Assembly: GCF_006716085.1 (NCBI RefSeq) | Contig: NZ_VFON01000001.1 | Coordinates: 868,001-932,000 of the forward strand | Origin: Leucobacter komagatae | GTDB taxonomy: Bacteria; Actinomycetota; Actinomycetes; Actinomycetales; Microbacteriaceae | Direction of reading: 5' to 3' | DNA length: 64,000 nt | Part shown: positions 19,432 to 23,245 of the stretch, one piece after another | Layout: each line of letters opens with the position of its first letter | How positions within the stretch are numbered: the first letter of the stretch is position 1 | Made by a program: the position numbers and the translations under genes | Notes under the pieces: model-generated | What the model was told of the DNA's origin: nothing | What the model saw: only the letters and a program-made list of their open reading frames with translations | Database searches by the model: none

Positions 19432-19899
19432 ATGGCAGCCACGCTCTCGCACACGATTAGGCAGTTCACCGAGGCAGACACGGAGCAGGCGGTGGCGCTC
19501 TGGGAGACGTGTGGGCTGACGCGCCCCTGGAACGACCCGCGGTCTGACATCGCCCGCAGCCTCGCCGCGCAGCCCGAGCTGTTTTTCGCGGCCGTGGCAG
19601 ATCAGGCTGCGCCCCGCACAAAGCCCCAACTCCTCGGGACGGTGATGGCGGGGTACGACGGCCACCGCGGCTGGATGTACTACCTCGCGACCGCGCCCGA
19701 GGCCAGAGGAGCAGGAATCGGGCGCGCCCTCGTCGCTGAGGTTGAGCGACGCCTTGAGTCGCTGGGCTGCCCCAAGGCGCAACTCATGGTGCGCACTGAC
19801 AACACCCAGGCCACCGGGTTCTACGAGGCCCTCGGGTACGGGGTGAACGAGGTGCTCGTGCTCGGCAGGCGGCTCATCGAGGACTCCCCGGCCGCGTAG
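19432..19899 (+). CDS. GNAT family N-acetyltransferase (YpeA-like)
   Basis: 155 residues. The acetyl-CoA-binding motif is EARGAGIGRALVAEVERRL (about 89-107). N-terminal IRQFTEADTEQAVALWETCGLTRPWNDP and C-terminal MVRTDNTQATGFYEALGY match the YpeA/RimI-like set. The acceptor is unknown. The start lies 10 bp after the HAD stop, so co-transcription is likely; a TAGGTT six bases before the ATG could also give an internal leaderless promoter. Confidence 0.82.
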   Translation: MAATLSHTIRQFTEADTEQAVALWETCGLTRPWNDPRSDIARSLAAQPELFFAAVADQAAPRTKPQLLGTVMAGYDGHRGWMYYLATAPEARGAGIGRALVAEVERRLESLGCPKAQLMVRTDNTQATGFYEALGYGVNEVLVLGRRLIEDSPAA

Positions 19900-20070: not shown

Positions 20071-20562
20071 CTATCCGTCGAGGAGCGTGAAGGCTGGCGC
20101 CTGCGCTCGTTGGGTTCGGGCTGCCTGCGCGTTGAGTCCGTCGCACCAGCTCGGGTACAGACGGAATCCGCGCTTGCCTGCGCAGCCCGCGTGCTGCGTG
20201 ATTCCGAGGTCCATCAGCATCTCTGCGGTAAACCGAAACACCCCCGACCGGGCGAGTGTTCCGGACTCAGCGGTTGCTCCTGGCTCGGCGACAAAGACGA
20301 GCAGCCCCGCTGTCCCATCGTCGGCGGCAAACGGCTGGGTCTTCCCGTCAGCGCCCCGCTCCCAGACGGCGACGAACGCGCCTGGCTTCGTGGGGGTGAT
20401 GCGGGCGGTGCGGATCCGCCAGCGTTCCTCGGCCTCACCCACTCTCAGCAGCACGGTTCCAGACTCGTACTCGCCACCCTGTTCCTCTGGTGTCGGACCG
20501 CCGAGCACCTCGCCGAGGCCGACCAGGCGCGGAGACAACCGGTGAAACGTTGGAAATGACAC
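20071..20562 (-). CDS. MepB family protein
   Basis: 163 residues. The C-terminal half FRFTAEMLMDLGITQHAGCAG followed by GKRGFRLYPSWC carries the MepB signature known from the third gene of the staphylococcal mepRAB multidrug-efflux operon, whose biochemical role is undefined. The GTG start is preceded at seven bases by TAGGCT and no ribosome site, suggesting a leaderless message. It diverges from an arsR-MFS pair and shares their 101-bp promoter region. That context again links MepB with an exporter, although the regulator and pump here are from other families. Confidence 0.8.
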   Translation of the reverse strand: MSFPTFHRLSPRLVGLGEVLGGPTPEEQGGEYESGTVLLRVGEAEERWRIRTARITPTKPGAFVAVWERGADGKTQPFAADDGTAGLLVFVAEPGATAESGTLARSGVFRFTAEMLMDLGITQHAGCAGKRGFRLYPSWCDGLNAQAARTQRAQAPAFTLLDG

Positions 20563-20598
20563 CCGAGAAGCCTACCCCGGCGCCGCCTACAGGCCCGA

Positions 20599-20614
20599 CG
20601 CCACAACGCCACAA
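20599..20614. repeat. Tandem CGCCACAA octamer
   Basis: Two head-to-tail copies of CGCCACAA lie between the mepB promoter and the 32-bp dyad. They may be part of the same regulatory array or a chance duplication. Confidence 0.35.
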
Positions 20615-20617
20615 GAT

Positions 20618-20649
20618 GCACAATAAATCTTGCGCAATAGTTCTTGTGC
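20618..20649. promoter_or_regulatory. 32-bp symmetric operator in the mepB / arsR divergent promoter
   Basis: The sequence has the symmetric form GCACAA - 6 bp - TTGCGCAA - 6 bp - TTGTGC: the outer arms are exact reverse complements and the centre is self-complementary. The central TTGCGC also sits 16 bp before TATTCT (20652-20657), so it can serve as the -35 box of the leaderless arsR promoter. A bound repressor would occlude RNA polymerase. The likely ligand-responsive protein is the ArsR-type regulator encoded immediately downstream. Confidence 0.65.
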
Positions 20650-20663
20650 GATATTCTCGTTTC

Positions 20664-21245
20664 ATGGCCGATCAAGCAAACCTCCACCGCGCTGCCCACA
20701 TGCGCGTGCTCGCCCACCCGACACGACTGAAGCTGCTCGCCCTGCTGCGGGAGCACGGTCCCCAGACTGCCGCCCTCCTCGCACGACACGTCGATGAGGC
20801 GCCTGGCTCCCTGAGCTACCACCTGCGAAAGTTGGCAAGCGCCGACCTCATCGAGGAGGCGACCGACGCGGGCACCGACGCGCGCGAGCGGTGGTGGCGC
20901 GCCACACACGCAGAGACGGTGTGGAACACGGCGGAGTTCGCGGCCGACCCCGAACGCCTCGCGGCCCAGCAAGACATGTACCGAGCGCTCGGGCAGGCCT
21001 ACGCGCAGCGCCTCGCCGCCTACATCGACGGAGCTGGCGAACTCGACCGAATCTGGCTCGAAGCTGGCTTTCTGACAGACCGGAGCCTGCGGCTCACCCC
21101 CGGGCAGCTCGGGCAGCTCGGCTCAGAACTTGAAGCACTCCAGGAGCGCTGGCTGTCGGTGAGCCGCGAGAACATCGCCCAACCCGACGTGAGCCCCGAC
21201 GCGGCAGACGTCTTCTTCCTCGTGCAGGGCTACCGGCAGCCATGA
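20664..21245 (+). CDS. ArsR/HTH_20-type winged-helix regulator
   Basis: 193 residues from ATG 20664. An upstream in-frame extension crosses the promoter and is rejected. The winged helix is RVLAHPTRLKLLALLREHGPQTAALLARHVDEAPGSLSYHLRKLASADLI (about 13-62), followed by the wing and ERWWRATH. The C-terminal half is helical and carries no cysteine cluster, so metal sensing is unlikely; a small organic ligand is more probable. No ribosome site is visible, and TATTCT seven bases upstream implies a leaderless transcript. The downstream MFS gene overlaps by four bases (ATGA). The gene most likely represses itself, the pump and mepB. Confidence 0.85.
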   Translation: MADQANLHRAAHMRVLAHPTRLKLLALLREHGPQTAALLARHVDEAPGSLSYHLRKLASADLIEEATDAGTDARERWWRATHAETVWNTAEFAADPERLAAQQDMYRALGQAYAQRLAAYIDGAGELDRIWLEAGFLTDRSLRLTPGQLGQLGSELEALQERWLSVSRENIAQPDVSPDAADVFFLVQGYRQP

Positions 21246-22501
21246 GTAGGCGTTCCGACGCCGCCAAGAGCCCCGACCAGCCGGGCCGCCCCGCAGCGAT
21301 GCGCTCCCTCCGCGCCCTGCTCGTCAGCCACGCGCTCTCGCGAACGGGAAATGTCGTCACTGTCTTCGCGATCCCGTTCGCGGTGCTCGCCACGGGCGGG
21401 TCTGCGCTGCAGGTGGGGCTCGCCGCGGCCGCCACGACGGCGCCCGTCGTCATCGGTGGTACGTTCGGCGGCGTGGTCATCGACCGCATCGGACACGTAC
21501 GGGCGTCGGTCATCGCAGACCTCATCAGCGGGGCGACGCTCGCCCTGATCCCTCTCCTCGCGCGTGCCGATGCGCTCCCCTACGGGGCGCTGCTCGCGCT
21601 CGTCTTCCTCGGTGGGGTGTTCGACGCTCCGGGCGAGACCGCGCGGCGGGTGCTGCTGCCGCCGCTCTCACAGCGGGCGGGGCTTCCCATCGAGCGGTCC
21701 ATCGGCTTTCTCGACGGCACGAGCCGGCTGTCGGCGCTGCTCGGTGCGCCCCTCGCGGGCGCCCTGGTCGCAGCCATTGGGCCACACCCCGCCCTGTTCG
21801 CCACCGCGGCGGCCTTTGCGCTCTCGGCCGCGATCACGGCGGGCCTCGTGCGTCTGCCCGCGGGCGCGGTCGAACGCGAGCCATCGCTCGGCTACTGGCG
21901 CGACCTCGCGGAGGGAATGCGGTTCACGGTTCGGGATCCCTTGCTCGCGCGCATCGTCGCCCTCGTGCTCCTCACCAACGCGCTCGACGCGGCGCGCTCG
22001 GGGACGCTGATGCCGCTCTACGCGGCGGAGCAGCTCGGCGGCCCGACCGCCCTCGGGGTGGTCGTCGGGGTGTTCGGCGCCGCCGCCCTCCTCGGTACCG
22101 TCGCGTTCGGATACGTCGCGCACCGGCTCCCGCGAAGGATCCCGTTCGCGCTGTGCTTCGCGGTTGCGGGCGCATTCTCTTTCGCGCCAGCGCTGGGGGC
22201 CGGGGTGCCGGGCATGGTCGCGGCCGCCACCGTCAGCGGGCTCGCCGCGGGGGCAATCAACCCGATTCTCGGCGCGGCGCAGTTCGAGCGCATCCCTCCC
22301 CAGCTCAGGGGCCGCGTGCTCGGGCTTGTGACAGCGGGTGCGTGGGCCGGAATGCCGGTCGGCAGCCTCCTTGGCGGCGTCGGGGCCGAGCTCATCGGGG
22401 TGCGCTGGATGTTTCTCGCGATTGGGGTGGTCTACGTCGCAGCGACGCTCACTCCCCTCGCCGGCGGGCAGTGGAAGCTTATGGAACGAGGCCGGGGTTA
22501 G
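21242..22501 (+). CDS. MFS transporter, drug-exporter type
   Basis: 419 residues with about 12 hydrophobic segments. The N terminus LLVSHALSRTGNVVTVFAIPFAVLATGGSALQVGL and loop 2-3 GGVVIDRIGHVRA (motif A-like, G-x-x-x-D-R-x-G) match the EntS/Mef-like MFS_3 group of exporters. Its ATG overlaps the arsR stop, so expression is translationally coupled to the regulator. The 3' end overlaps by four bases the stop of the convergent GyrI-like gene. The substrate is unknown; the context predicts the compound that also inactivates the regulator. Confidence 0.87.
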   Translation: MSRRSDAAKSPDQPGRPAAMRSLRALLVSHALSRTGNVVTVFAIPFAVLATGGSALQVGLAAAATTAPVVIGGTFGGVVIDRIGHVRASVIADLISGATLALIPLLARADALPYGALLALVFLGGVFDAPGETARRVLLPPLSQRAGLPIERSIGFLDGTSRLSALLGAPLAGALVAAIGPHPALFATAAAFALSAAITAGLVRLPAGAVEREPSLGYWRDLAEGMRFTVRDPLLARIVALVLLTNALDAARSGTLMPLYAAEQLGGPTALGVVVGVFGAAALLGTVAFGYVAHRLPRRIPFALCFAVAGAFSFAPALGAGVPGMVAAATVSGLAAGAINPILGAAQFERIPPQLRGRVLGLVTAGAWAGMPVGSLLGGVGAELIGVRWMFLAIGVVYVAATLTPLAGGQWKLMERGRG

Positions 22502-23154
22502 CTATCCGCGGCACGCGCCGCCGAATCGCCCGGCCCAACTCGCTCGACGGGTTGCCGCAGGAGCGTGCGCATCCGCTCCGGGGCGGTCTTCCGCGGGTCG
22601 CTGAAGTACACCTCATGATGGGTGCCGCGCATCGCGAGCCCCGCGGACGGAATAAACCGCTCATGCAGCTCTTCGAGCACCGGGGCCTCGTCGTCGAACG
22701 AACCAACGTGCAAGGTTTGCACGCAGAGCCCTTCAGCGAGCGTCGCAAAGCGGACACGTTCGAGCATCTCGGGGGCATTCTTCCCGCCGAGACCGCGCAC
22801 AACGGTGTCGAACATGGCGTGGTCGATCCACTCCGGAACCATGATCATCATCGTCCAGCGCCATACCGACTTGTCGCGCGACACCGTGAAAGAGTCCATA
22901 TCGTCGGCCCACCAGAGCCCTTCAAGCGGTGGGACAACGTAGTCACGGCCCAGCTCACGCTTGCTCGCAAACTTCAGCTTGTACGCGACCGGATACAGCG
23001 CCTCAAGCGCGCGGGCGTACTCGCCGCCCTCGTTGGGGTCGCCCTGGCCGTCAATCATGAGGTACGTCGTCTCAGGCACCTGGGCGAGGCGGAACTCGCC
23101 TCGCTTCGCCCGGAAGCTGTCGAGCGTCTTCTTGAAATCGATCTTGTCTGACAC
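22498..23154 (-). CDS. GyrI-like small-molecule-binding domain protein
   Basis: 218 residues from GTG 23154, which has AAGGAG five bases upstream; a reading extended to 23727 runs through the convergent methyltransferase and is rejected. The sequence SDKIDFKKTLDSFRAKRGEFRLAQVPETTYLMIDGQGDPNEGGEYARALEALYPVAYKLKFASK is typical of stand-alone GyrI-like proteins (SBMC-like fold), which bind lipophilic ligands and in some cases hydrolyse xenobiotics. Its C-terminal GTHHEVYFSDPRKTAPERMRTLLRQPV is also characteristic. Proximity to a drug pump is suggestive but the strands are convergent. Confidence 0.82.
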   Translation of the reverse strand: MSDKIDFKKTLDSFRAKRGEFRLAQVPETTYLMIDGQGDPNEGGEYARALEALYPVAYKLKFASKRELGRDYVVPPLEGLWWADDMDSFTVSRDKSVWRWTMMIMVPEWIDHAMFDTVVRGLGGKNAPEMLERVRFATLAEGLCVQTLHVGSFDDEAPVLEELHERFIPSAGLAMRGTHHEVYFSDPRKTAPERMRTLLRQPVERVGPGDSAARAADS

Positions 23155-23245
23155 GCGGGCTCCTTCATTCGGGTGGCGCCAGCCTACACGCGGCGCGGCC
23201 CGGACTGGCCTGGGCCGGCACTGGGCCGGCGGTACACTGCTACCG

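Follow-up and report, generated by a model that had tools for sequence, protein, structure and literature searches.

Classical repressors of the ArsR/SmtB family, such as SmtB and AzuR, are winged-helix proteins. Their operators are described as single or paired inverted repeats of the 12-2-12 type close to the promoter (PMC8790569), with half-site cores 6 bp apart and, as we read the sites printed there, with TGAA/TTCA as the core. In S. aureus, the mepRAB system unites MepB, the MarR-like regulator MepR (PMC3617543), and the MATE efflux pump MepA (PMC12321651). A review states that the mepB promoter region is not bound by MepR and that MepB showed no association with multidrug phenotypes (PMC3617543), and two later papers link mutations of S. 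aureus mepB to omadacycline or linezolid susceptibility (PMC9722764; PMC12321651).

In this study, we analysed a 64,000-nucleotide stretch of the Leucobacter komagatae genome (hereafter the window), in which a mepB-like gene lies divergent from an arsR-MFS gene pair (Table 1). Like mepRAB, the locus combines a homologue of S. aureus MepB (structure 4LQE) with a regulator and a putative efflux pump; unlike mepRAB, the pump belongs to the MFS, and the link to mepB is found in just 2 of 52 arsR loci. Like ArsR/SmtB operators, the repeats upstream of arsR lie near the promoter and have cores 6 bp apart, whereas their cores are CAA/TTG, the units are contiguous at a rigid pitch of 14 bp in one to three copies, and the adjacent regulator is a cysteine-free protein of 193 residues. 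The reading that we prefer, with a probability of about 0.83, is that a cysteine-free autorepressor of the ArsR family controls the arsR-MFS pair through a tandem operator at a leaderless promoter, and that mepB is a separate accessory gene.

Table 1. Features of the mepB/arsR-MFS region, numbered from the first letter of the window
Feature	Position	Strand	Remarks
MepB-like gene (mepB)	20071-20562	-	PF08877, 116.3 bits (cut-off 27); start GTG at 20562
Candidate mepB -10 box	20569-20574	-	TAGGCT; leaderless arrangement TAGGCT-N6-GTG; apart from the operator
Putative tandem operator	20618-20649	.	RCAA-N6-TTGY twice without a gap (14-bp units at 20620-20633 and 20634-20647), flanked by outer GC bases
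Inferred arsR -35 box	20630-20635	+	TTGCGC; mid-operator; 16 bp before TATTCT
Inferred arsR -10 box	20652-20657	+	TATTCT; 6 nt before ATG; leaderless promoter
ArsR-family (HTH_20) regulator gene (arsR)	20664-21245	+	193 aa
MFS_1 gene	21242-22501	+	ATGA overlap with arsR; PF07690, 112.5 bits
GyrI-like gene	22498-23160	-	PF06445; convergent with the MFS gene

Genes and proteins of the locus

The coordinates bear out the arrangement proposed in the initial annotation, namely mepB diverging from an arsR-MFS pair joined by an ATGA overlap, with a dyad in the gap between the two arms, which spans 20563-20663 and measures 101 bp if mepB starts at the GTG given in Table 1. Within the window, no Rfam family matched at its gathering score. 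The GyrI-like protein downstream of the MFS gene has orthologues of 71-73% identity at two other loci (L056 and L057), and its gene adjoins arsR-MFS in two other Leucobacter genomes, G003 and G004.

The regulator carries an ArsR-type winged-helix domain, with scores of 48.9 bits for PF12840 (cut-off 27) and 36.3 bits for PF01022 (cut-off 22), and it also narrowly matches the MarR model PF01047 (25.5 bits against a cut-off of 24.6). The best scores are thus HTH_20 and ArsR for the regulator and MFS_1 for the pump, a combination that differs from the MarR and MATE families of mepRAB. The protein contains no cysteine; of 52 homologues, 49 likewise have none in the part that aligns, and three have one. 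The cysteine-containing metal site of ArsR/SmtB metal sensors is accordingly missing, and the score for the metalloregulator model NF033788 stays below the cut-off (45.1 vs 55). Metal sensing by this ArsR was judged unlikely from the lack of cysteines, a judgement that concerns metal sites built with cysteine. The predicted structure (pLDDT 87) includes a long helical C-terminal part, and its nearest fold in the PDB is Kfla_6221 of Kribbella flavida (4g6q; E 4.2e-4, 17% identity, TM 0.49), deposited as a functionally unknown protein.

The MFS protein has its best NCBIfam matches to TIGR00900 (2A0121; 160.3 bits, cut-off 319.6) and Tap (137.7 bits, cut-off 625), yet it scores under both of these curated efflux cut-offs. 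From its similarity to these nearest models, it may be regarded as a candidate efflux pump. The mepB product belongs to the MepB family, as it exceeds the PF08877 cut-off and adopts the MepB fold in comparison with 4LQE (E 2e-14). It has an extra stretch at about residues 94-104 and the lowest PF08877 score (115.8 bits) of 24 genus members.

The putative operator and the arsR promoter

The 32-bp dyad originally described in the gap reads GCACAA-N6-TTGCGCAA-N6-TTGTGC. It has one match in the window at up to three mismatches against none expected from 100 shuffles, and since the pattern was derived from the site itself, the independent evidence is its conservation. We collected 52 arsR loci by protein score alone, consisting of 49 from the 398 genomes of the family at E<=1e-30 and three from the genus search (G003, G004, and G030). 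An RCAA-N6-TTGY unit lies just upstream of arsR in all 52; the site is conserved at orthologous arsR genes, contrary to the second of the two observations by which the initial annotation would have been refuted. By comparison, no such unit occurs in a stretch of equal length inside any of the 52 arsR genes, and in 10,400 mononucleotide shuffles single units arose 67 times and double units never. Two units are present in 46 loci, three in three, and one in three, one of which (L216) also has a degenerate upstream unit under looser matching. Distances between units of up to 60 bp take only two values, 14 bp (52 pairs) and 28 bp (3 pairs). Three-unit operators were seen at L158, L185, and L197, and in G127, G387, and G412 as overlapping pattern matches only.

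A search that started from the DNA pattern gave a similar picture. The exact two-unit pattern is present in 35 of the 398 family genomes, whereas the same pattern read backwards is present in none, and all 30 loci examined for their neighbours, further places in five of the 35 genomes being outside this check, adjoin a gene for an ArsR homologue (26-100% identity). At class level, a slightly wider pattern was found in 7 of 296 genomes, among which are the source genome of the window and two family members, and all five loci examined there (L219-L223) again adjoin an ArsR homologue. These counts do not represent independent events because many of the loci are close relatives and the protein and DNA tests overlap. 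An MFS homologue follows in 34 of the 34 arsR loci that have enough downstream DNA for this check, the other 18 of the 52 having too little. The operator rule appears limited to this subfamily, since upstream of three weaker ArsR homologues in the genus (L059, L060, and L061; 33-36% identity) the 14-bp unit is absent and another site, GCACAA-N3-TTGTGC, is present, whose spacer measures 3 bp. At L190 (G389:C3:44567-45112), the arsR homologue contains an in-frame TAG and the operator is intact. In the window's own genome, the site in the gap is the sole exact match of the two-unit operator, and relaxing the search to two mismatches yields three places, compared with two for the pattern read backwards, so a larger regulon of two-unit sites, to which this search was directed, is unlikely.

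As in ArsR/SmtB systems, the sequences of all 52 loci place an inverted-repeat site with half-site cores 6 bp apart over the regulator's own promoter, and it is very probable that the ArsR regulator encoded next to the dyad uses it as its operator. To this extent the symmetric operator of the initial annotation stands, but a pair of abutting 14-bp units seems a better description of the site than a single operator of 32 bp. A single operator, bound by one dimer or a tetramer centred on TTGCGCAA and lacking a unit array, seems improbable to us. Such a site would be in keeping with the perfect palindrome that TTGCGCAA forms at the centre and with the finding of exactly two units in 46 of the 52 loci. 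Against this, one-unit (L199 and L200) and three-unit sites (L185, L192, and L197) occupy the same promoter position, the central CG is conserved at 0.88 and 0.69 compared with at least 0.96 for the CAA/TTG cores, and, over 50 loci, comparison of the N6 stretches of the paired units gives nearly equal agreement in mirrored (2.88 of 6) and in direct orientation (2.74 of 6).

The core of the dyad had also been proposed to double as the arsR -35 box, and the spacing of TTGCGC, 16 bp upstream of TATTCT, agrees with this. Among the 52 arsR loci, 50 have a TANNNT box 5-8 nt before an in-frame start codon, and in these 50 the distance from the -35 box (TTGYRC between the units) to the -10 box is 15-18 bp. 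From the -10-to-start spacing by itself, we infer that arsR is transcribed without a leader, and the arsR promoter thus looks leaderless with the operator over its -35 box and spacer. The earlier proposal that both promoters of the gap look leaderless fits the spacing on either side.

Our preferred reading of a tandem operator can be put as the following model. Because the half-site spacing within a unit is that of a classical ArsR/SmtB site, each RCAA-N6-TTGY unit would be expected to hold one ArsR dimer, and in the resting cell two dimers would sit side by side over the -35 box and the spacer, blocking the leaderless arsR-MFS promoter. A small-molecule inducer, probably a substrate of the pump and, given a regulator without cysteines, probably not a metal, would release ArsR, whereupon regulator and pump would be made together by way of the ATGA overlap. 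The mepB gene would escape this control as an accessory gene with its own promoter, inserted in a variable gene island by rearrangement.

mepB as a probably separate neighbour

The initial annotation had taken the locus for a MepB-regulator-pump triad equivalent to mepRAB. Among 54 Leucobacter genomes, PF08877 is found in 24 and a close arsR (at least 64% identical) in four, and only two of the 24 mepB-bearing genomes, that of the window and G030 (Leucobacter sp. G161), have arsR-MFS beside mepB. Seen from the regulator, the 52 arsR stretches extend upstream by roughly 0.7-1.5 kb or further, and two of them contain mepB. Gene calls in these relatives were made with a codon-usage script, which missed some mepB loci, and an HMM was used for those. 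A wider survey covered the best 80 of 458 mepB relatives found with an alignment query and excluded the window's own genome; about 20 of these loci come from genus genomes already counted, and one Gordonia contributes three contig-end copies. An operator unit within 250 nt upstream of mepB was found in one of the 80, that of G030. In Gordonia spumicola, L133, L135, and L137 are three contig ends that seemingly represent one mepB locus. Querying the genome contigs with the single MepB protein gave no relative.

MepB was also sought outside chromosomes. Among 72,556 plasmid records, 73 match MepB, and the 10 loci inspected have a transposase, integrase, or recombinase in seven, a transcriptional regulator in four, and GNAT in three; no annotated drug pump lies within 2.5 kb of mepB in any of these 10 of the 73 records, whose gene table is incomplete. 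Viral contigs gave no confirmed relative, and seven phage records match MepB at 31-34%. Over the 24 mepB-bearing genomes of the genus, the 80-locus survey, and 10 of the 73 plasmid records, the triad was rejected as a recurring unit.

The neighbours of mepB elsewhere are mixed. Forty proteins near mepB in the genus fell into varied families, among them DNA methylase-like, ASCH, GNAT, glyoxalase-like, luciferase-like, and solute-binding proteins, amidotransferase, dihydrodipicolinate synthase-like proteins, PAP2, transposase, and ABC subunits, and eight had no family. MepB homologues of related genomes are thus largely without association to pumps, which the initial annotation itself had named as grounds for abandoning its reading. 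There are exceptions, at a few loci for MFS genes and at some for regulators. An MFS_1 gene lies tail to tail with mepB in G032, with an ABC ATPase on the other flank (and in G016 likewise, judging from the equal layout), and an MFS protein is present at L131 of the survey. In G012 (L036, 5159-6310), the gene immediately preceding mepB, in the same orientation, encodes an HTH_20 regulator of ArsR type, without a pump among the called genes next to it, and an equal layout suggests this arrangement also for G051 (L038); a TetR gene lies beside mepB in G004.

Proteins with at least nine predicted membrane helices make up 13 of 155 immediate and 7 of 148 second neighbours in the 80-locus survey, a higher share than at a distance of three to six genes (13 of 435). 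Ten of the 20 candidates within two genes of mepB were scanned, and another three or four belong to genus loci that were analysed separately. The ten comprise three Na/Ca exchangers, an amino-acid permease, glutamate and alanine symporters, TerC, FUSC (fusaric-acid-resistance-like), an ABC permease, and the MFS protein of L131. The excess of membrane proteins near mepB is present in the counts, is spread over many transporter families, and is partly repeated in sister species. An Na/Ca-exchanger-like gene within two genes of mepB occurs in two genera, in Leucobacter (L044/L046; G044 and G028) and in Brevibacterium (L114/L126/L132). GNAT acetyltransferase genes recur adjoining or near mepB on chromosomes as well as on plasmids, in the window (19432-19899), at L035, L037, L043, and L055, and at L226, L228, and L231.

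The mepB gene appears to have a promoter of its own. Its candidate -10 box TAGGCT and GTG start are kept with equal spacing at the mepB of another L. komagatae genome, G018 (L039), where no operator unit is present in the 400 nt upstream. In both genomes that link mepB to arsR-MFS, 15 nt separate the operator from the arsR ATG, whereas its distance from the start of mepB is 57 bp in the window and 97 bp in G030; in the window, its near edge at 57 bp is upstream of the position expected for a mepB -35 box. ArsR bound some 57-87 bp ahead of the mepB start might nonetheless influence this gene in the window genome.

These observations leave little room for a true divergon, in which ArsR bound to the shared dyad would repress both arms and MepB would take part in the drug response, and we regard it as very unlikely. 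The divergent orientation that the window shares with G030, together with the drug susceptibilities linked to S. aureus mepB mutations, would agree with it. On the other hand, mepB is absent from all but two of the arsR stretches, the operator is kept without an adjacent mepB in G003, G004, and G014, the mepB box is kept without the operator in G018, the operator-to-mepB distance differs between the two linked genomes, and, according to the review on S. aureus, the promoter region of mepB is no target of MepR there.

An alternative that does without co-regulation is that MepB and arsR-MFS are linked in function as members of a resistance island under selection, which would also include the GNAT, GyrI-like, and hydrolase genes. 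A hydrolase-HAD-GNAT block flanks mepB in G000, G030, G018, and G038 (where a contig end falls inside mepB) and flanks arsR-MFS-GyrI in G003 and G004, and GNAT is near mepB in 3 of the 10 plasmid loci. At the island, though, the two are found not only together but also each alone, and mepB elsewhere has varied neighbours, which makes such a selected linkage doubtful. G003 carries arsR-MFS-GyrI in the island with the operator kept, and no PF08877 match is found in its genome; G014 likewise keeps the operator in a genome that lacks mepB; G004 has the arsR-MFS-GyrI block and operator, and its mepB lies 17 kb away near resolvase-type and TetR genes; G018 has the island with mepB and without arsR-MFS. 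According to our preferred reading of mepB as a separate gene, MepB is probably a mobile neighbour with an endonuclease-like fold, and we place it outside the regulated unit.

It had further been suggested from the gene neighbourhood that MepB has a role in drug response independent of the pump type. The susceptibilities linked to mepB mutations in S. aureus make a drug-related role of MepB possible, but this locus is no evidence for one.

Significance of the ArsR-MFS pairs

We found no report of an RCAA-N6-TTGY tandem operator in the open-licence literature, represented mostly by titles and the starts of abstracts, and one may be in print elsewhere. It is tempting to speculate, tentatively and at odds that we would put below even, that an undescribed and largely cysteine-free ArsR subfamily exists in Actinomycetes, which would act at one to three head-to-tail RCAA-N6-TTGY units with a rigid 14-bp pitch over leaderless promoters. 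The number of units would then set how strongly the efflux genes are repressed, and adjacent dimers, lying about 120 degrees apart around the helix, might touch each other and thereby bind cooperatively.

In summary, a short DNA pattern serves as a predictive rule for the site at which a group of ArsR-MFS pairs, from Microbacteriaceae and also a few other Actinomycetes, is likely to be controlled, and shows where the inducers of these pairs may be sought. For MepB, the analysis removes a tempting but weak argument, namely that its position beside another type of pump and regulator speaks for a pump-independent role in drug response.
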